Position numbers and translations under genes: made by a program. The notes below the pieces were generated by a model that did not search any database, was not told the origin of the DNA, and saw only the letters and a list, made by a program, of their open reading frames with translations. DNA of 64,000 nt from positions 186,001-250,000 of the forward strand of contig NZ_FNOV01000001.1 in the NCBI RefSeq assembly GCF_900107135.1. The letters run 5' to 3'. Shown here piece after piece: positions 20,097-64,000 of this stretch. Every line of letters begins with the position of its first letter. The first letter of the stretch is position 1. The DNA comes from Hymenobacter psychrophilus (GTDB lineage Bacteria; Bacteroidota; Bacteroidia; Cytophagales; Hymenobacteraceae).

Positions 20097-20130
20097 GAAC
20101 ACCAGAACGAAAGCTAACAGCTTTATAAAT

Positions 20131-28033: not shown

Positions 28034-28480
28034 ATGCAAGAGTTGAACCTGCCGCCTTTCGAAGCCAAAGTTACACAAAGCGGCGAAAATCTGCTAATCT
28101 GGGATGTACTGCGCCGCCGCCACGTTGCGCTCACGCCCGAGGAGTGGGTGCGCCAGCATTTGGTGCATTACCTCATCAACCATCGTGGCTACCCCAAGGG
28201 CCTGCTAAGCCTGGAGCGCGGCCACCAGTACAACAAACGCCAGAAACGCACCGATCTGCTGGCCCTCGACGCCACCGGCCAGCCGCTGCTGCTGGTCGAG
28301 TGCAAGCGCCCCACGGTGCCCATCACGCCCGCCGTCGCCCACCAGATTGCCACCTACAACCTCACCATCGGCGCGCCCCTGCTGCTGCTCAGCAACGGCC
28401 TGGAGCACTACTGCTGGCGCGTGGACGCCATAAACCGCACCAACGAGCGGCTGAACGAAGTGCCATTTTATAGCTGTTAG
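28034..28480 (+). CDS. Single-domain HsdR N-terminal-like nuclease-fold protein
   Basis: 148 residues matching the N-terminal domain of type I restriction enzyme R subunits. A PD-(D/E)xK arrangement is visible: RTDLLALDATGQPLLLVECK supplies D and ExK. The front part (LNLPPFEAKVTQSGENLLIW, then LTPEEWVRQHLVHYL) is typical of a family conserved across Bacteroidota as a stand-alone gene, so a housekeeping nucleic-acid role is more likely than restriction. No hsdS or hsdM is nearby. Its last two codons and stop (Ser-Cys-stop) come from the adjacent heptamer repeat. Confidence 0.8.
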   Translation: MQELNLPPFEAKVTQSGENLLIWDVLRRRHVALTPEEWVRQHLVHYLINHRGYPKGLLSLERGHQYNKRQKRTDLLALDATGQPLLLVECKRPTVPITPAVAHQIATYNLTIGAPLLLLSNGLEHYCWRVDAINRTNERLNEVPFYSC

Positions 28481-28549
28481 CTGAGAGCTATTAGCTGATA
28501 GCCTCCGTTCGTTCAGCTAACAGCTAACAGCTAACAGCTAACAGCTAAC
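28470..28549. repeat. Heptamer (AGCTAAC/GTTAGCT) repeat element supplying two stop codons
   Basis: TAGCTGTTAGCTGAGAGC with TATTAGCTGATAGC forms the left part and GCTAACAGCTAACAGCTAAC with AGCTAACAGCTAACC the right part, an imperfect inverted repeat built from a 7-base unit. The convergent genes ending at 28480 and 28531 both terminate within it, each with the codons AGC TGT TAG. Confidence 0.88.
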
Positions 28550-31089: not shown

Positions 31090-31183
31090 TTGAGCTATTA
31101 GCGGGTAGCTGATGGCTGTTGGCTTTGGGTGGCGTTGCTGTCAGGGAGTGAGCTAACAGAAAATGGCCAACGGCCAACAGCTT
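31090..31183. repeat. Heptamer repeat element just upstream of bioB
   Basis: GAGCTATTAGCGGGTAGCTG, then ATGGCTGTTGGCTTT, is opposed by AACAGAAAATGGCCAACGGC, then CAACAGCT: an imperfect inverted copy of the AGCTAAC family. It is open in the bioB frame, where it would read ...[13 protein letters not shown]. It abuts the bioB ATG, so it must lie in the 5' untranslated leader. Confidence 0.75.
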
Positions 31184-34769: not shown

Positions 34770-37508
34770 ATGCCCCAAGATACCCTAAAAGTCCCCGAAC
34801 TGGCCCTCATTCTGCTGATTGGCAGCACCGGCGCGGGCAAGTCGACGTTTGCCCGGCGTTTGTTCAAGGCCACCGAAATTGTGTCGTCGGATGCGTGCCG
34901 GGGCATGGTAGCCGATGACGAGAACGACCAGTCGGCCAGCCAGGATGCATTTGAGCTGCTGCACTACCTGGTGGCCAAGCGCCTCAAGCGCGGGCTGTTA
35001 ACGGTGGTGGATGCCACCAACGTGCAGGAAAGCAGCCGCAAGGCGCTGGTGGCCCTGGCCCGGCAGTACCACGTGCTGCCCGTGGCCGTGGTGCTCGACG
35101 TGCCCGATGCCGTGGCCCAGCGCCGCAACGACCAGCGCCCCGAGCGCCGCCATCTGGGCCGGCACGTCATTGCCGGCCACCGCCAGCAACTGCGCCGCAG
35201 CCTGCGTACCCTCAAGCAGGAAGGCTTCCGGCATATTCACCACCTGCGCGGCGTGGAGGAAATCGACGCCGTGCAAACCGTGTTGCGCGACCGGCTCTAC
35301 AACAACCGCCAGCAGGAAACCGGCCCCTTCGACATCATCGGCGACGTGCACGGCTGCTACCACGAGCTATGCACGCTGCTGGAGCAACTGGGCTACCAGA
35401 TAACCGAGGAGCCGATAACCGACGTGCGGGATTTGGGCGTGCGGGTAGTGGCGCCTTTAGTCGATTACCAGACTTCAGAAGGCCTCGATAGGAACCTCGC
35501 AACCACCGGCTCGCTTGTTCCGACAACGGCGGTGATAGGGGAGGGCGAGGCGGAAAACGTGCGACGCAAAGCCGTCTTCCTGGGCGACCTCGTGGACCGG
35601 GGCCCCGCCTCGCCGCAGGTATTGCGGCTGGTGATGAGCATGGTGCGCGACGGCACGGCGCTGTGCGTGCCGGGCAACCACGACATCAAGCTGCTGCGCC
35701 ACCTCAACGGCAAAAAGGTAACCGCCAACCACGGGCTGGCCGAAACGCTGGCCCAGCTGGCACCCGAGCCCGAGGCGTTCAAGAGCCAGGTGCGGCAGTT
35801 TCTGGATGGGCTGGTAAGCCACTACGTGCTCGACGGCGGCAAGCTGGTGGTGGCCCACGCGGGCCTCACCGAGGACATGCACGGCCGGGGCTCGGGGGCC
35901 GTGCGGGCCTTCGCGCTATTTGGCGAAAGCACCGGCGAAATCGATGAGTTTGGCCTGCCCGTGCGCTACGAGTGGGCCCGCGAGTACCGGGGCCGGGCCG
36001 TGGTGGCGTTCGGCCACACGCCCGTGCCCGACCCCGAATGGCTCAACAACACCATCGACCTCGACACCGGCTGCGTGTTCGGCGGCCGCCTCACCGCCCT
36101 GCGCTACCCCGAGCGCGAGCTGGTCACCGTGCCCGCCGCCCAAGTCTACTGCGAGCCAGTCAGGCCGCTAAATCATAAGCTGTTAGCTGATAGCTCTCAG
36201 CTGTTAGCTTCCTCGTCAAAAGACCAGAACGAAAAGCTAACAGCTAACAGCTCTCAGCTAGAAGCTGAATTAGATATTCGCGACGTGACGGGCAAGCAGT
36301 TCATCGAAACGCGGCTGATGCGCGGGGTGACCATTCGGGAGGAAAACGCGGTGGCGGCGCTGGAGGTGATGAGTCGGTTTGCGCTGCACCCCAAGTGGCT
36401 GCTGTATTTGCCCCCCACCATGTCGCCCACCGAAACCTCGGCGTTGCCCGATTTGCTGGAGCACCCCGCCGAAGCCCTGGACTACTACCGGCGGCTGGGC
36501 GTGGAGCGCGTAGTGTGCGAGGAAAAGCACATGGGCAGCCGCGTAGTGGTGGTTTTGGGCAAAGACGAAGCCGCTATAACGCGCCGTCTGGGCCTCACGG
36601 GCGAAGGCATCGGCAAGTGCTACACCCGCACCGGCCGCAACTTCTTTACCGACGCGGCCCTCGAAACGGCCTTCATGGCCCGCCTGCGCGACGCCCTGAC
36701 CACGGCCGGCTTCTGGGAAAAGTTCGATACCGATTGGGTGTGCCTCGATGCCGAGCTGCTGCCCTGGTCGGCCAAGGCCCAGGAGCTGGTGAAAAACCAG
36801 TACGCCGCTGTGGCCGCCGCCGCCAACTTCGCTTTGCCCCAGGCCGAAGCCACGCTGGCCGAAGCCGCCGCCCGCGGCCTCACGGGGGCCGCCGAGCTGC
36901 TGGCCCGCACCAGTGCCCGCCGCGAAGCCGCCACCGACTACGCCGAGGCCTACCGCCGCTACTGCTGGCCCGTGCAGTCGCTCTCCGACCTCAAGCTGGC
37001 CCCGTTCCACCTGCTGGCCACCGAGGGCCGCACCTACTTCGAGCGCGACCACGCCTGGCACATGGAAACCCTGCGCGGCCTCGCTCTGGCCGACCCCGGC
37101 CTGCTCCGCGCCACGCCCTACCGCGTGGTGGCCCTGAACAACCCCGCCGAAACCGACGCCGCCATAACTTGGTGGACCGACCTGACCGCCGCCGGGGGCG
37201 AAGGCATGGTGGTGAAGCCCTACGATTTCGTGCCCGCCGGCAAGGGCGGCCTGCTCCAACCGGCGCTCAAGTGCCGCGGCCGCGAGTACCTGCGCATCAT
37301 CTACGGCCCCGATTACCTGCTACCCGGTAACCTCGAACGCCTGCGCCAGCGCAACGTGAAAGCTAAGCGCAACCTCGCCCTGCGCGAATTTGCGCTCGGC
37401 GTCGAAGGCCTGGAGCGGTTCGTAGCCCGCGAGCCCCTGCGCCGGGTGCACCAGTGCGTGTTCGGCGTACTAGCCCTGGAAAGCGAAGCCGTTGACCCAC
37501 GGCTGTAA
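34770..37508 (+). CDS. pnkp: Polynucleotide kinase-phosphatase-ligase (bacterial Pnkp)
   Basis: 912-residue RNA-repair enzyme with three domains. The kinase has P-loop GSTGAGKS at 18-25. The metallophosphatase has GDVHG near 191, GDLVDRGP near 271, GNHD near 300, HAG near 362 and GHTPV near 416. The C-terminal adenylyltransferase domain has the EEKHMGSR nucleotidyl-lysine motif near 583. The enzyme heals both ends of cleaved RNA and, with Hen1, seals it in a protected form. Between phosphatase and ligase domains, residues about 470-500 are encoded by an AGCTAAC heptamer element (36178-36268) and read KLLADSSQLLASSS...KLTANSSQLE. The frame stays open through it. The extra residues lie in an interdomain linker, so activity is probably kept. 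Confidence 0.93.
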   Translation: MPQDTLKVPELALILLIGSTGAGKSTFARRLFKATEIVSSDACRGMVADDENDQSASQDAFELLHYLVAKRLKRGLLTVVDATNVQESSRKALVALARQYHVLPVAVVLDVPDAVAQRRNDQRPERRHLGRHVIAGHRQQLRRSLRTLKQEGFRHIHHLRGVEEIDAVQTVLRDRLYNNRQQETGPFDIIGDVHGCYHELCTLLEQLGYQITEEPITDVRDLGVRVVAPLVDYQTSEGLDRNLATTGSLVPTTAVIGEGEAENVRRKAVFLGDLVDRGPASPQVLRLVMSMVRDGTALCVPGNHDIKLLRHLNGKKVTANHGLAETLAQLAPEPEAFKSQVRQFLDGLVSHYVLDGGKLVVAHAGLTEDMHGRGSGAVRAFALFGESTGEIDEFGLPVRYEWAREYRGRAVVAFGHTPVPDPEWLNNTIDLDTGCVFGGRLTALRYPERELVTVPAAQVYCEPVRPLNHKLLADSSQLLASSSKDQNEKLTANSSQLEAELDIRDVTGKQFIETRLMRGVTIREENAVAALEVMSRFALHPKWLLYLPPTMSPTETSALPDLLEHPAEALDYYRRLGVERVVCEEKHMGSRVVVVLGKDEAAITRRLGLTGEGIGKCYTRTGRNFFTDAALETAFMARLRDALTTAGFWEKFDTDWVCLDAELLPWSAKAQELVKNQYAAVAAAANFALPQAEATLAEAAARGLTGAAELLARTSARREAATDYAEAYRRYCWPVQSLSDLKLAPFHLLATEGRTYFERDHAWHMETLRGLALADPGLLRATPYRVVALNNPAETDAAITWWTDLTAAGGEGMVVKPYDFVPAGKGGLLQPALKCRGREYLRIIYGPDYLLPGNLERLRQRNVKAKRNLALREFALGVEGLERFVAREPLRRVHQCVFGVLALESEAVDPRL
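36178..36268. repeat. Heptamer repeat element inside the pnkp coding sequence
   Basis: AAGCTGTTAGCTGATAGC with TCTCAGCTGTTAGCTT on the left and AAGCTAACAGCTAACAGC with TCTCAGCTAGAAGCT on the right form an imperfect inverted repeat of the same family as 28470-28549. It is in frame: about 31 codons with no stop, although the reverse reading used at 28470-28549 gives TAG stops. Confidence 0.9.
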
Positions 37509-59590: not shown

Positions 59591-62500
59591 TTAAACGGCC
59601 CGCTGATACGCCAGCCGCAGCAGGCTTGGCAATACCAGCAGCAGTAGCGGCAACGCCAGCAGCAGCCCGCCGATAACGGCAATGGCCAGCGGCTGGTGCA
59701 GCTGCGCCCCGGCCCCGATGCCCAGTGCCAGCGGCAGTAGCGCAGCAATGGCGGCCAGGGCCGTCATCAGCTTAGGACGCAGGCGGGCGGCAATGGCGTA
59801 GCCGATGGCCTGCTCGATGGGCAACTGCTGGCGGGCTTCCAGAAATTGCTGGAGCGTGAAAATAGCGTTTTCGCCGATGATGCCGACCACCATAATCAGG
59901 CCGGTGTAGGAGCCCACGTTGAGCGGTGTGTTGGTGAGAAACAGCGCCAGCGCCCCGCCCGCTGGCCCCAGCACGGCCACCAGCAGCACCAGCCCCGCCG
60001 CCCTTAGCTCCCGAAACAGAAACAGCCCCACCGCAAACACCAGCAGGCAGGCCGCCCCCAGAATCGTGAGCAGCTCCTGAAACGACTGCTGCTGCTCGGC
60101 GTAGGAGCCGCCGTACTGAATAAAGTAGCCCGGCGGCAGCGGCACTTCGCGGGCCAGCTTCTGCTGAATTTCGCGCATGGCCGTGCCCAGGTCGCGGCCA
60201 TTGAGGCGGGCGGTTACGGCGGTCAGGGCCTGCAGGTTCTCGCGCTCCAGCTCGGCGTCGCCGGCGTTTACGCGCACCGTGGCCAGCTCGTCGAGGCGGT
60301 GCTGCTGGCCGCCGGGTACAAAAATGGGCTGGCCACGCACCTCGGCGAGGCTGGCGCGCTGGCCGCCGGGGTAGCGCAGGCGGATGTTGAGCAGCTGCTC
60401 GCCTTCGAGCACTGTGCCGGCTACCACGCCCGCCAGCCGGGTTTGCAGCTGGCTCTGAAAATCGAGGGCCGTGATACCGAACTGGGCCAGTCGGCGGGCA
60501 TCGGGGCGTACCTCCACAGCGGGGCCCATGCGCACGATGCCGTCGAACACGTCGGCCGTGCCGTGCGTTTTCTCCACCAGGCCGGCCACCTGCCCGGCCA
60601 ACCGGTAGCGGGTCTGGGTATCGGGCCCGAATACCTTGATGTCGATGGGCTGGACGGTGCTCATCAAATCGCCCAGCATGTCGCCAATCACCTGCCCGAA
60701 ATCAATAATCAGTGCCGGCTGGGTGGCTTCGATGCGCTGGCGGATGTCGTCGATAACCTCTTCGGTGGTGCGGCTGCGGTCGGTTTTGAGGCGGATGAGG
60801 TAGTCGCCACGGTTGGGTTCGGTGATGAAGAAGCCCATTTGGGTGCCGGTGCGGCGCGAGTAGCTGGCCACCTCGGGCACTTGCCCAATCAGCCGTTCGG
60901 CCTGGCGCAGCATCTGGTCGGTTTGCTCCACGCTGGTGCCGGGCGGCGAGTTGTAGTCGAGCACAATGGCGCCCTCATCCATCTCCGGCAAAAAACCCGT
61001 CGCCAGCCGCGGAATTACGAACCACAGCACGGCCATCAACCCCAGAATGCCGATTATGGAGTAAGCCGGGTGGCGGATAACGGCCCGTACCCACTTTTTT
61101 GAGCTATCAGCTGTTAGCTGATGGCTGTTAGCTTTTTGAATCGAGCTATTAGCCGTTAGCTGATAGCTATCAGCTTCGTTCCTGTTATTAGTGCCAGCAG
61201 CCTGTTCTTGAACGTCGCTAACAGCTAACAGCTTTAAGCTAGCAGCTCTTCCAGAAAGCAGCAGATACAGCACCGGCAGCCCCAGCCAGGCCACGAAAAA
61301 AGAGCACACCAGCGCCACCACCATGGTAGTGGCCAGCACCTTGAAGTAGGCGCCGGCCACGCCGCCGAGCAACGCGAAGGGTAGAAAGATGACGATGGTG
61401 CTGAGCGAGGAGCCCACCAGCGCCGGCAGCAGGTGCTGCACCGAACGGTTTACAATTTGGCCGGGCGTGTAATCGGGGTGGTCCTCACCCACGCGGTGCA
61501 GCTGCTCCACCATCACCACGGCATCGTCAATCATCAGGCCGATGGCGGCGGCCAGGGCCCCCAGCGTCATGATGTTGAGCGAGTAGCCCAGGCCGAAGTA
61601 AAGCACGGCCAGCGTGAGGGCCAGCGCCAGCGGAATGGTGAGTAGAATGGTGAGCGAGGCGCGCCAGGACCGCAGAAACAGTGCCGTCACGACCAGCGCC
61701 AGCGCCAGACCAATCCAGAGCGAATCCTGCACCGAGCGTACCACTTCGGCCACGAAATCGGCCTGGTCGTAGTAGGGCTGCAGCGTGATGCCCTTGGGCA
61801 GGCCGCTTTGCAGGGCGGCTACCTGGGCGCGCACCCCTTCACTCACCAGCACTACATTGGCATCGGGCTGGCGCAGCACCGAAAGCAGCACGGCGGGGTG
61901 GCCGTTGGCATTCACGCGGGTATACTCGGTTTGCTCGCCCAGCTGCACGGTGGCCACGTCGGCCAGGCGCACGATTCGGCGGCCGTCGTTGCGCAGCACC
62001 ACGTTTTCGAGGTCCTGCCGGCTGCTGACGGTGGCGTCGGTAACCGTGAGGTAAAGGCGGCGGTAGTCGGTGAGGTAGCCGTTGCTCTGCACGAAATTGG
62101 TCTGGCCCAGCGCCGCACTCACGTCGGTGGGCGTCAGGCCGAGGGCGGCCAGCTGGTCGGCCTGCAGCTCCACCTGAAACTCCTTGGTGCGCCCGCCCTG
62201 TACCTGCACCGTCGACACCCCCTCCACCTGCGACAAAAACGGCTTGATGGTGAACAGCGCCAGCTTGCGCAGCTCCAGCGCCGAGCGGCCCGGCGCTTCC
62301 AGCGTATAGCCCATCACGGGCAGAATGGCCGGGTTCATGCGCTCCACCGACAGCTGGGTGCCCGCCGGCAAGTCGGCCCGAATCTGGTTGAGCCGCGACT
62401 CAATGGTCTGCTGGCTGCGCACCACATCCACGCCCCAGTCCAGGAAGGCCGAAATCTCGCACGAGCCCCGGCTGGTAGTCGAGCGCAGCAGCTTCAGCCC

Positions 62501-62710
62501 CGGCACCTGCTTGATGGCGTTTTCCAGCGGCTTGGTCACGGTCACCATCATGCGGTCGACGGGCTGTAAGCCGTTGTCGGCAATCACCTTCACCTTCGGA
62601 AACGTGACTTCCGGAAACAGCGCCACATTGATGCGCCGGTACGCCAGCGTGCCCAGGGCCAGCGCCAGGGCCAGCATCACCGCAATCGGAGCTTTATAAG
62701 TTTGGAACAT
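59591..62710 (-). CDS. RND family efflux permease (inner membrane), heptamer repeat inside
   Basis: 1039 residues with twelve membrane helices and two large periplasmic loops. Helix 1 is APIAVMLALALALGTLAYR, the conserved PEVTFPKVKV loop follows, and the central proton-relay helix 4 motif LMIDDAVVMVEQLHR is near residue 405. LPEMDEGAIVLDY and IDIKVFGPD belong to the second loop. It is most like HAE/CusA-type exporters of Bacteroidota. About residues 488-537 (61099-61248) are encoded by an AGCTAAC heptamer element in the cytoplasmic loop between helices 6 and 7, in frame and open. The gene runs in one direction with the adaptor and outer-membrane factor genes, forming a tripartite pump. Confidence 0.92.
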   Translation of the reverse strand: MFQTYKAPIAVMLALALALGTLAYRRINVALFPEVTFPKVKVIADNGLQPVDRMMVTVTKPLENAIKQVPGLKLLRSTTSRGSCEISAFLDWGVDVVRSQQTIESRLNQIRADLPAGTQLSVERMNPAILPVMGYTLEAPGRSALELRKLALFTIKPFLSQVEGVSTVQVQGGRTKEFQVELQADQLAALGLTPTDVSAALGQTNFVQSNGYLTDYRRLYLTVTDATVSSRQDLENVVLRNDGRRIVRLADVATVQLGEQTEYTRVNANGHPAVLLSVLRQPDANVVLVSEGVRAQVAALQSGLPKGITLQPYYDQADFVAEVVRSVQDSLWIGLALALVVTALFLRSWRASLTILLTIPLALALTLAVLYFGLGYSLNIMTLGALAAAIGLMIDDAVVMVEQLHRVGEDHPDYTPGQIVNRSVQHLLPALVGSSLSTIVIFLPFALLGGVAGAYFKVLATTMVVALVCSFFVAWLGLPVLYLLLSGRAASLKLLAVSDVQEQAAGTNNRNEADSYQLTANSSIQKANSHQLTADSSKKWVRAVIRHPAYSIIGILGLMAVLWFVIPRLATGFLPEMDEGAIVLDYNSPPGTSVEQTDQMLRQAERLIGQVPEVASYSRRTGTQMGFFITEPNRGDYLIRLKTDRSRTTEEVIDDIRQRIEATQPALIIDFGQVIGDMLGDLMSTVQPIDIKVFGPDTQTRYRLAGQVAGLVEKTHGTADVFDGIVRMGPAVEVRPDARRLAQFGITALDFQSQLQTRLAGVVAGTVLEGEQLLNIRLRYPGGQRASLAEVRGQPIFVPGGQQHRLDELATVRVNAGDAELERENLQALTAVTARLNGRDLGTAMREIQQKLAREVPLPPGYFIQYGGSYAEQQQSFQELLTILGAACLLVFAVGLFLFRELRAAGLVLLVAVLGPAGGALALFLTNTPLNVGSYTGLIMVVGIIGENAIFTLQQFLEARQQLPIEQAIGYAIAARLRPKLMTALAAIAALLPLALGIGAGAQLHQPLAIAVIGGLLLALPLLLLVLPSLLRLAYQRAV
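61099..61248. repeat. Heptamer repeat element inside the RND permease coding sequence
   Basis: GAGCTATCAGCTGTTAGCTG, then ATGGCTGTTAGCTTT, then GAGCTATTAGCCGTTAGCTG, then ATAGCTATCAGC on one side, and CGCTAACAGCTAACAGC with TTTAAGCTAGCAGCTC on the other. It encodes about 50 residues (RAASLKLLAVS..., DSYQLTANSSIQKANSHQL, TADSSKK) without a stop in the permease frame. It is the longest of the four copies. Confidence 0.9.
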
Positions 62711-62739
62711 GGGAGGAGCTGGGAAATTGAAGGGAACTT

Positions 62740-62828
62740 CTGTCATCCTGAGCGGAGAGAAGGACCTTGTCACATTTGCGCGAGTCGTTGTTGCGTAATA
62801 ACGTCCTTTGCTCCGCTCAGGATGACAG
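62740..62828. repeat. Inverted repeat, CTGTCATCCTGAGC family, degenerate copy
   Basis: CTGTCATCCTGAGCGGAGAG at 62740 is opposed by CTCCGCTCAGGATGACAG ending at 62828; the middle is less well paired (AAGGACCTTGTCAC against AATAACGTCCTTT). It lies between the adaptor and permease genes of the efflux operon. Confidence 0.75.
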
Positions 62829-62837
62829 GCGGGCTAC

Positions 62838-63782
62838 TCACTCACGACCTCTCTGCTCGATCTGCACCGCTGCCGTATCATCCAGCCCATAATTCCCACT
62901 AACCAGAATCCGGTCCTGGGGCGAGAAAACGGGGCGTTTGATTTCAATGCGGCCCTGCTGTTCGAGGCCGGTTTGCACCGGCACGCGCACGGCGGTGGAG
63001 TCGTTGAGCAGGCGCATGACCCAGAACTCGGTCTGGGTTTCGTTGGTGAGCACGGCCGGCCGGGGTAGGGTCGCGGCGCGGTAGGGCGCGGTTTTGTCAA
63101 GTTGCACGGTTACGGCTATGTTTTCGGGCAGCTGGGGCGCGGGGCCAATGAGGCGCACGGTGTAGCGCTGCACCTGGGTGGCGAGGTCGGCGGCGGGCAG
63201 CACCTCGGCCACCCGGCCCGGCAGCACCCGGCCATCGGGCAGCGTAATGCGGCAGCTTTGGCCGGTGCGCACGTAGCGCAGCTGCGTTACGGGCACATCG
63301 AGCACGAAACCGAAGCGGGTCTGGTCGTACACCAGGGCCAGCTGCTCGCCATCCTGCACGTAGTCGCCGGCCAGCTTGTCCACGATGGCCAGCACCCCGG
63401 CGCGGGGGCTGGCAATGCGGATGATGCCGCTGAACCGCAGCCGCGGGTCGCCGGTAAGCTGGTCGAGGTGCAGGGTGCGGGCTTCCTTGGTTTGCAGCGT
63501 GAACACCGTCTGGCCCGCCCGCACCAGCTGCCCCGGCACGGGCACCGGGGCCAGCAGGTAGCCCGTGGTGGTGGCCCGCAGCACGTCCTTGGCCGGGTAC
63601 GCCGACACGGCCCGCAGCTCCAGCACGTCGGTCAGCGTATCGGTCTGCACCCGCTCCACCGTTACCACGGCCCGGGGCCGCACGGCCGTTTCGTCGGCCG
63701 CAGTTTCCTCGGCCGGCGCGGCGGGGTTGCAGGCGGCCAGCAGCAGGAGAGCAGAAAAGGGCAGGAGGGCTCGGTTGGTCAT
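62838..63782 (-). CDS. RND efflux periplasmic adaptor, lipoprotein
   Basis: 314 residues. The signal peptide ends in a lipobox (LLPFSALLLLAAC), giving an inner-membrane-anchored adaptor. The HlyD/MFP fold shows a barrel-sandwich lipoyl-like half (GQLVRAGQTVFTLQTKEART near residue 82 and SPRAGVLAIVDKLAGDYVQD near 125) and a beta-barrel domain (FVLDVPVTQLRYVRTGQSC). The helical hairpin is very short, in line with the CusB-like short adaptors of Bacteroidota. ATG 63782 is preferred over the longer frame through a repeat. Confidence 0.87.
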   Translation of the reverse strand: MTNRALLPFSALLLLAACNPAAPAEETAADETAVRPRAVVTVERVQTDTLTDVLELRAVSAYPAKDVLRATTTGYLLAPVPVPGQLVRAGQTVFTLQTKEARTLHLDQLTGDPRLRFSGIIRIASPRAGVLAIVDKLAGDYVQDGEQLALVYDQTRFGFVLDVPVTQLRYVRTGQSCRITLPDGRVLPGRVAEVLPAADLATQVQRYTVRLIGPAPQLPENIAVTVQLDKTAPYRAATLPRPAVLTNETQTEFWVMRLLNDSTAVRVPVQTGLEQQGRIEIKRPVFSPQDRILVSGNYGLDDTAAVQIEQRGRE

Positions 63783-63799
63783 GATTTGAAAATTGTAAC

Positions 63800-63877
63800 A
63801 GCACGTCGTGCTTCGACTGCGCGGACGCCAGATGAAGCGCGACGTGCTTTTTACTGGTAACTGGCAACTGGTAACTG
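63800..63877. repeat. Inverted repeat and ACTGGTA/ACTGGCA tandem tract
   Basis: AGCACGTCGTGCTTC (63800-63814) pairs with GAAGCGCGACGTGCT (63834-63848) with one mismatch. It is followed by ACTGGTAACTGGCAACTGGTAACTG-type units in three copies up to 63877. It lies between the tolC end and the adaptor gene. Confidence 0.72.
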
Positions 63878-63880
63878 ACC

Positions 63881-64000
63881 TCATTCACTCAGATAATCCA
63901 GCTGATAGAGCACCCGTAGCCGGTCGGTTTCGGTTTGGGTGAGGCTGAAGCCGAAGTTGCGGGTACTGCCAAGGAGCTGCAGGTAGTCGAGGATGCTGAT
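63881..64000 (-). CDS. Outer membrane efflux protein (TolC family), C-terminal end only
   Basis: The frame is open from the end of the window to the stop codon at 63881-63883. The 39 visible residues (SILDYLQLLGSTRNFGFSLT, then TETDRLRVLYQLDYLSE) look like the C-terminal helix and tail of a TolC-type outer membrane factor, in which an AxxDYLQxL segment precedes the end. Its position upstream of adaptor and permease on the same strand completes a tripartite RND operon. Most of the gene lies outside the window. Confidence 0.6.
   Translation of the reverse strand: MSILDYLQLLGSTRNFGFSLTQTETDRLRVLYQLDYLSE

Follow-up and report, generated by a model that had tools for sequence, protein, structure and literature searches.

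The pnkp gene of Hymenobacter psychrophilus carries, in frame, an inverted repeat of AGCTAAC/GTTAGCT heptamers that probably belongs to a dispersed family of non-autonomous inverted-repeat elements, here termed F1, whose copies survive in protein loops that are refilled with the palindrome family active in the resident genome. The gene lies in a stretch of 64,000 nucleotides (contig NZ_FNOV01000001.1, positions 186,001 to 250,000; hereafter the window, whose coordinates are used throughout), which we analysed together with the whole genome (4.76 Mb, denoted G000) and a set of 61 Hymenobacter genomes. We observed the dispersal of the element, its coding copies, native empty loops in relatives, repeated exchange of occupants at fixed loops, a tie between loop occupancy and genome-wide abundance, and a base change at the position of the stop codon. 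Flexible regions of core enzymes are thus subject to continual rewriting by repeat DNA.

An inverted heptamer repeat in the phosphatase-ligase linker of Pnkp

The pnkp open reading frame (ORF; 34770-37508, plus strand) encodes a kinase, metallophosphatase and ligase protein of 912 aa, as judged from the reading of the ORF, from its Pfam domains (AAA_33, Metallophos and PNKP_ligase) and from PDB homologs, and it remains open through the repeat along its whole length. An earlier, sequence-only reading of this DNA had proposed an inverted AGCTAAC/GTTAGCT repeat within the gene with the frame kept, and this was borne out: two arms were located at 36178-36266, in the linker between phosphatase and ligase. 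The left arm (36178-36209, plus strand) is of the GTTAGCT type, has five AGCT at a stride of 7 and is read as KLLADSSQLLA. It is followed by a 25-base spacer (36210-36234, plus strand) containing CCAGAACGA and by a right arm of the AGCTAAC type (36235-36266, plus strand), read as KLTANSSQLEA. The RNA of the repeat is predicted to fold with -41.4 kcal/mol (z = -5.8). The insert lies within residues 468-501, between the stretches aligned to a solved phosphatase (4j6o, to residue 468) and a solved ligase (4drf, from residue 501). A clean gain of ~31 residues, as the same reading had it, was not found. The linker, at 41 aa, is about as long as that of several relatives lacking the repeat: the most frequent native form has 35 aa, and linkers with no assigned palindrome range from 29 to 43 aa. 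Because the repeat stands in place of native loop sequence, it hardly changes the length of the linker; the pnkp copy is no single clean insertion.

F1 is dispersed through the genome

With up to 3 mismatches, AGCTAACAGCTAACAGCT matched the window 24 times, against 0.05 matches expected. The genome contained 449 matches at up to 2 mismatches (overlaps counted; reversed control, 0), and at up to 1 mismatch the sequence was present in 53 of the 61 Hymenobacter genomes, with counts from 0 to 221. An arm sequence model gave at least 176 matches in the H. psychrophilus genome. When a fixed arm rule was applied to the DNA fetched around matches, at least 103 distinct F1 elements with 162 arms were obtained, none counted twice; this is a lower bound, the arm model having scored 150 of 1732 candidates. 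The rule was specific: it detected no arm in either 400 kb from three relatives or 1.28 Mb of shuffled DNA. Requiring near-exact period-7 arrays, when applied to the window and the same 400 kb, proved too strict for the degenerate arms. Exactly five AGCT (32 bases) were present in 104 of the 162 arms, the range being 3 to 13 per arm; 51 of the 103 elements were simple inverted pairs and 46 had one detectable arm. Spacers of the simple pairs spanned 11 to 166 bases, nine of them having 75-78 bases; by eye, these nine (L008, L019, L082, L084, L099, L112, L115, L122 and L129) contain a terminator-like hairpin. The 88 intergenic copies with clear neighbours lay between tandem (57), convergent (26) or divergent (5) genes, a setting that differs from the gene-pair background of the same DNA (169, 46 and 41, respectively; P = 0.009). 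No GTAG tag was detected in F1, the arm consensus by reading being AGCTNTTAGCT...

AGCTAAC arrays of at least 3.5 units also occurred in many phyla, including Cyanobacteria, Acidobacteria, Planctomycetes, Chloroflexi, Proteobacteria and other Bacteroidetes (L380-L459). Among the matches listed from named genomes, 9 of 80 such loci had an inverted partner by a strict rule.

In-frame copies and the stop-codon phase

The genome holds further coding copies of the repeat, as the sequence-only reading would lead one to expect: at least seven F1 elements lie in frame in core genes, namely those for Pnkp, an AcrB-type pump, PurH, alanyl-tRNA synthetase (AlaRS), valyl-tRNA synthetase (ValRS), IspG (GcpE) and a tandem D-Ala-D-Ala ligase. 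Several of these genes are essential and are therefore unlikely to be pseudogenes. Orthologs were compared for Pnkp, AlaRS, ValRS and PurH, leaving aside the IspG, D-Ala-D-Ala ligase and pump copies, and most homologs without the DNA repeat also lacked the residues that it encodes.

Internal coding copies translate much alike (..LLADSS..EANSQQLTANSS), because an AGCTAAC unit placed in codon phase 0 is split into AGC and the stop codon TAA. We examined this position in 18 F1 inserts from four genes (ValRS 7, Pnkp 5, PurH 5, AlaRS 1). In units of the form AGCxAACAGC, x was C in all 12 phase-0 units, whereas 26 of the 27 units in the other two phases (1 and 2) had T; F1 elements of the H. psychrophilus genome outside coding loci had T 305 times, C 8 times and G twice at this base. 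The phase bias was significant (Fisher P-values of 3e-9 and 5e-17, with G omitted). Only 4 of 49 two-armed non-coding F1 elements were free of stops in some frame, a count that excludes L153 (4896, closed) and L130. A single base change, AGCTAAC to AGCCAAC, removes the in-frame stop. The earlier argument that a unit of 7 survives in frame only with a special length and phase thus stands for length and is incomplete for phase, since the array crosses all three phases and the main hurdle is the phase-0 TAA.

The GTTAGCT strand codes for hydrophobic residues and the AGCTAAC strand for polar ones (L092, L130). At the N-termini of one TolC-like and one LptE-like ORF of H. psychrophilus, named by eye, heptamers write a stretch resembling a signal peptide (SCQLLAVSF, KKLSAISCQLIALF; L092 C37, L130 C23).

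Different repeat families occupy the same loops

Unrelated repeat families occupy the same linkers in relatives, which the sequence-only reading had missed. Across 44 complete Pnkp genes (L075-L079, broken or partial, were set aside), the phosphatase-ligase linker carried F1 in five, one of them decayed, F2 in five and F3, a GTAG-tagged repetitive extragenic palindromic (REP) doublet, in four; here and below, family labels of loops were assigned by eye. In the earlier linker of Pnkp, 25 genes had a native stretch of 15 residues and 17 had significant palindromes, which by eye fall into at least four further kinds. Of the 18 long first linkers, 17 contained inverted repeats exceeding all 100 letter shuffles, as did 11 of the 14 second linkers with an assignment; the first linker of H. 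psychrophilus itself, L032, L047 and L060 did not exceed the 100 shuffles. The F1 junctions of L059 and L060 differ from those of the H. psychrophilus gene (L031), so that by their sequence these copies look independent. The gene appears to be broken in three relatives (L075, L076 and L077, from G005, G012 and G019), and in G019 its frame ends shortly after the F3-bearing linker.

The ValRS insert falls in an alignment gap opposite 1gax. The loop could be read in 60 of the 61 genomes: 40 were native, 17 had heptamer inserts of five words (7 F1, 5 F2, 2 F9 (AATACTC), 2 F10 (AAGCTGC) and 1 F11 (GAACTCA)), one had an insert of period 8 (G058) and two were unassigned (G057 and G039). On a ValRS tree built without the loop, these states require at least 16 changes, including five for F2, all forced by starred branches, five for F1, four of them forced, and two for F10; the tree is a quick one, with a long G036 branch. 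The H. psychrophilus genome also contains a partial second ValRS-like stretch (G000:C19:152328-152975), 92% identical to residues 683-898 of its own ValRS.

In AlaRS, likewise read in 60 of the 61 genomes, the loop was native in 57, shorter in G032, occupied by F1 in H. psychrophilus and occupied at the same place by F2 (CAACTGA heptamers) in G036. Three relatives whose AlaRS is 95-96% identical to that of H. psychrophilus lack the insert, which falls in an alignment gap opposite 4xem and takes the place of loop sequence, giving 47 residues instead of 30. The PurH linker carried F1 in 5 of the 30 genes read (30 of the 61 genomes), the insert falling at approximately residues 196-222, a region poorly aligned with the solved homolog 4ehi.

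Source of the loop occupants

In all nine gene-family comparisons, genomes carrying a family in a loop were richer in that family genome-wide (P-values 0.0003-0.059); these comparisons are limited to the genomes read, share genomes and are not independent. This points to the genome's own repeats as the usual source of the loop occupant. Several of the other families are themselves dispersed. F2 was found in 59 of the 61 genomes, with controls of up to 9 matches (in G045, against 169 F2 matches), so that the weakest of the 59 may be chance. F3 (GTAGCGCGGACTNNNNAGTCCGCG, up to 2 mismatches) occurred in 50 of the 61 genomes with up to 151 matches and a control of 0, and many of its listed places were plus/minus pairs ~60 bases apart. 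F10 was present in 39 of the 61 genomes, with 226 matches in G016, whose ValRS carries it. F4 and F5 recur (three and eight copies, respectively, in 140 kb of G002, two F5 copies in G045 and one of each in the window). F6-F9 and F11, named from loops by eye, were not seen to be dispersed in the sampled DNA: apart from a single F7, all were absent from the stretches of three relatives, and the window contained one F6.

We also considered a conserved spacer core, the F1 spacer often beginning with TTCGTTCTGG, and kept it as a weak hint only. Genus-wide, CTTTCGTTCTGG gave 78 matches against 31 in the control, and most of its loci lie outside palindromes: of 30 loci read, six were in palindromes (three non-F1) and at least 13 were one conserved coding stretch. 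TTCGTTC adjoins only 18 of the 162 F1 arms of H. psychrophilus. Separately, a nearly identical spacer (CTTTCGTTCTGGCAA..TGAACGAA) was seen with different arms, the inverted match being kept, at three intergenic-looking loci (L294, L309 and L314, from G002, G055 and G013).

Proposed mechanism and alternatives

The element would consist of two arms, typically of 32 bases (four heptamers plus AGCT), inverted around a variable spacer, and its copies would spread through the genome, probably through hairpin-dependent copying in trans that resembles transposition. A copy landing in a gene would survive only in a surface loop or interdomain linker, provided that the net change in length is a multiple of three and that the array either has no stop in frame or has lost it through a base change. 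Tolerant loops would keep receiving elements, so that across the genus one loop would be occupied successively by palindromes of whichever family is active in a given genome.

Several observations weigh against this account. No target-site duplication or clean junction was found in Pnkp, ValRS or AlaRS, and native loop sequence is replaced, so that simple insertion is a poor description. No Y1 transposase gene of the REP-associated tyrosine transposase (RAYT) type flanked by F1 was found in a search of the H. psychrophilus genome only: its single Y1_Tnp match adjoins a different repeat, TAGCCCAGGG, leaving a RAYT unsupported as the mover of F1. Dispersal of F9 and F11 was not demonstrated in the sampled DNA. 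G022 has F1 in ValRS with only 2 matches in its genome, and G026, with a decayed F1 in Pnkp, has 8. The ValRS states need fewer changes than shuffled labels do (16 against a mean of 19.5, with 0 of 200 shuffles as low); they are thus clustered on the tree and in part inherited. Finally, the Pnkp F1 alleles of L031, L032 and L048 share F1 arms and right-flank bases though they stand apart on the gene tree.

This last pattern bears on a different explanation, namely that a few insert alleles arose once and then spread between species by homologous exchange of gene pieces, which we regard as possible but doubtful for the inserts as a whole. The three alleles have a common right flank, CTAGAAGCTGAAYTAGATAT, and near relatives are native: L048 is nested among native L050-L052 and L056, grouping with L050 and L051 at 100/97 support, and the sister of L032 is palindrome-free L037 (100/93). 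Judging from these sequences, either one allele was moved by recombination or this site received an element on more than one occasion. The pnkp allele thus seems to be partly shared between species through recombination, a feature overlooked by the sequence-only reading, and homologous recombination is probably behind part of its spread. However, exchange of a few alleles does not fit the presence of different families at the same loop, the tendency of carriers to be rich in the family that they carry, the divergent junctions of L059 and L060, or the AlaRS inserts of H. psychrophilus and G036, which belong to two families.

Growth in place, in which heptamers are gained by slippage and hairpin-templated copying with no mobile copy, is unlikely. 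Arrays do vary in 7-base units, over the same range of 3 to 13 AGCT per arm, and the array begins much like native LTA codons, but both inverted arms appear together with the resident heptamer word, carrier genomes are richer in the same family elsewhere, and the same linker also holds REP doublets, which are not products of slippage.

We likewise give little credence to the notion that all Hymenobacter heptamer palindromes form one class, with a period of 7, arms of ~32 bases and a conserved hairpin, whose heptamer word is swapped wholesale between genomes. An inner motif (TTTCGTTCTGG) common to some palindromes with different words gives a weak hint of it. If true, it would suggest, instead of the ordinary transposition of a fixed sequence, either a machine that writes a 7-base template over and over or a process converting every copy in a genome in concert.

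Least probable is that the inserts are functional linker modules selected for length or flexibility, since, for all that frame and open reading are kept and internal copies read alike, most relatives lack the insert (57 of 60 AlaRS and 40 of 60 ValRS loops are native), the same position can be filled by unrelated sequences, and the shared reading is for the most part imposed by stops in the other phase.

Relation to known repeats and significance

The comparison that the sequence-only reading drew with Rickettsia palindromic elements (RPEs) is apt. RPEs are described as short palindromes lying between genes and in frame in conserved protein genes (PMC2229807, PMC3733652). F1 is likewise a dispersed short palindrome, found in frame in conserved genes and absent from homologs; judged by these descriptions, it is set apart by arms that are period-7 arrays and by the exchange of several families at one loop across the genus. 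In the sections consulted of PMC3733652, in-frame GTAG/CGTC REPs are described as including many dimers or groups coding for 20-30 aa, in many repair genes and some tRNA synthetases, different REPs are placed at about one site in recB of two Xanthomonas species, and a RAYT is the proposed mover of the GTAG families. The F3 doublets in Pnkp of other species correspond to such intragenic REPs, having the GTAG tag, a palindromic unit, the inverted dimer form and a high copy number. F1, F2, F9, F10 and F11 differ from REPs so described in lacking the GTAG tag; Hymenobacter is not mentioned in the sections consulted, and loop turnover is followed here over 60 genomes.

REPINs are two inverted REP units that form a hairpin and are thought to be moved in trans by RAYT transposases; F1 differs from them in that it lacks a GTAG end and, within its own genome, a flanking Y1 transposase.

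TAACTGA-type heptamer repeats, including short tandemly repeated repetitive (STRR) sequences, are 7-base arrays that occur also in Bacteroidetes and Cyanobacteria and sometimes in ORFs, with no known mode of spread according to a 2015 report (PMC4679880). The same report states that almost all are direct repeats and that those of Beggiatoaceae lie mostly just upstream of start codons. F1 shares with them the tandem 7-base unit and the occurrence of some arrays inside ORFs. It does not share the direct-repeat arrangement upstream of start codons: F1 differs from the repeats so described in its inverted arms around a spacer, its position mostly between tandem or convergent genes and its in-frame copies in core enzymes. 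In the openly licensed literature, we found no paper on palindromic intergenic repeats of Hymenobacter and none describing heptamer palindromes that replace one another at fixed loops of proteins. Palindromic repeats in frame have precedents; as far as our searches go, what is new is the recurrent exchange of heptamer-arm palindromes at fixed loops of essential enzymes.

The process becomes countable here, one loop of an essential enzyme being readable in 60 species with its occupants traceable on a tree. In tRNA synthetases, purine synthesis and RNA repair, repeat DNA is seen to supply new linker sequence continually, and a repeat unit that is out of frame is seen to be tamed by one base in one phase. 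Natural pairs of proteins with and without an insert allow its neutrality to be tested, and the spread of heptamer repeats becomes testable in a culturable genus.

Further repeat copies in the window

The three other copies claimed in the window by the sequence-only reading were all found. The first, an F1 element with both arms, was confirmed at 28472-28546 (claimed at 28470-28549), where no ORF has a coding signature. The second (31090-31183), placed between genes by that reading only, is present but degenerate, with 3 mismatches in each of two matches, and was missed by the arm rule. The third, proposed at 61099-61248 inside a second gene, was verified at 61102-61247 within an ORF of 1060 aa for an efflux pump of the AcrB/AcrD/AcrF type (59591-62773, minus strand); its left arms lie at 61102-61133 and 61144-61175, and a degenerate right arm, seen by eye, at about 61216-61247. 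An F1 half-arm (AGCTAACAGCT at 20112) occurs at 20102-20122 together with CTTTCGTTCTGG (20102-20113, minus strand), beside an F4-type palindrome, CACCCC..CCCCTC. A short F2-like heptamer array (63853-63880; AGTTACCAGTTGCCAGTTACCAGT on the minus strand) lies at the start of ORF 62838-63884 (minus strand), possibly an efflux adaptor.

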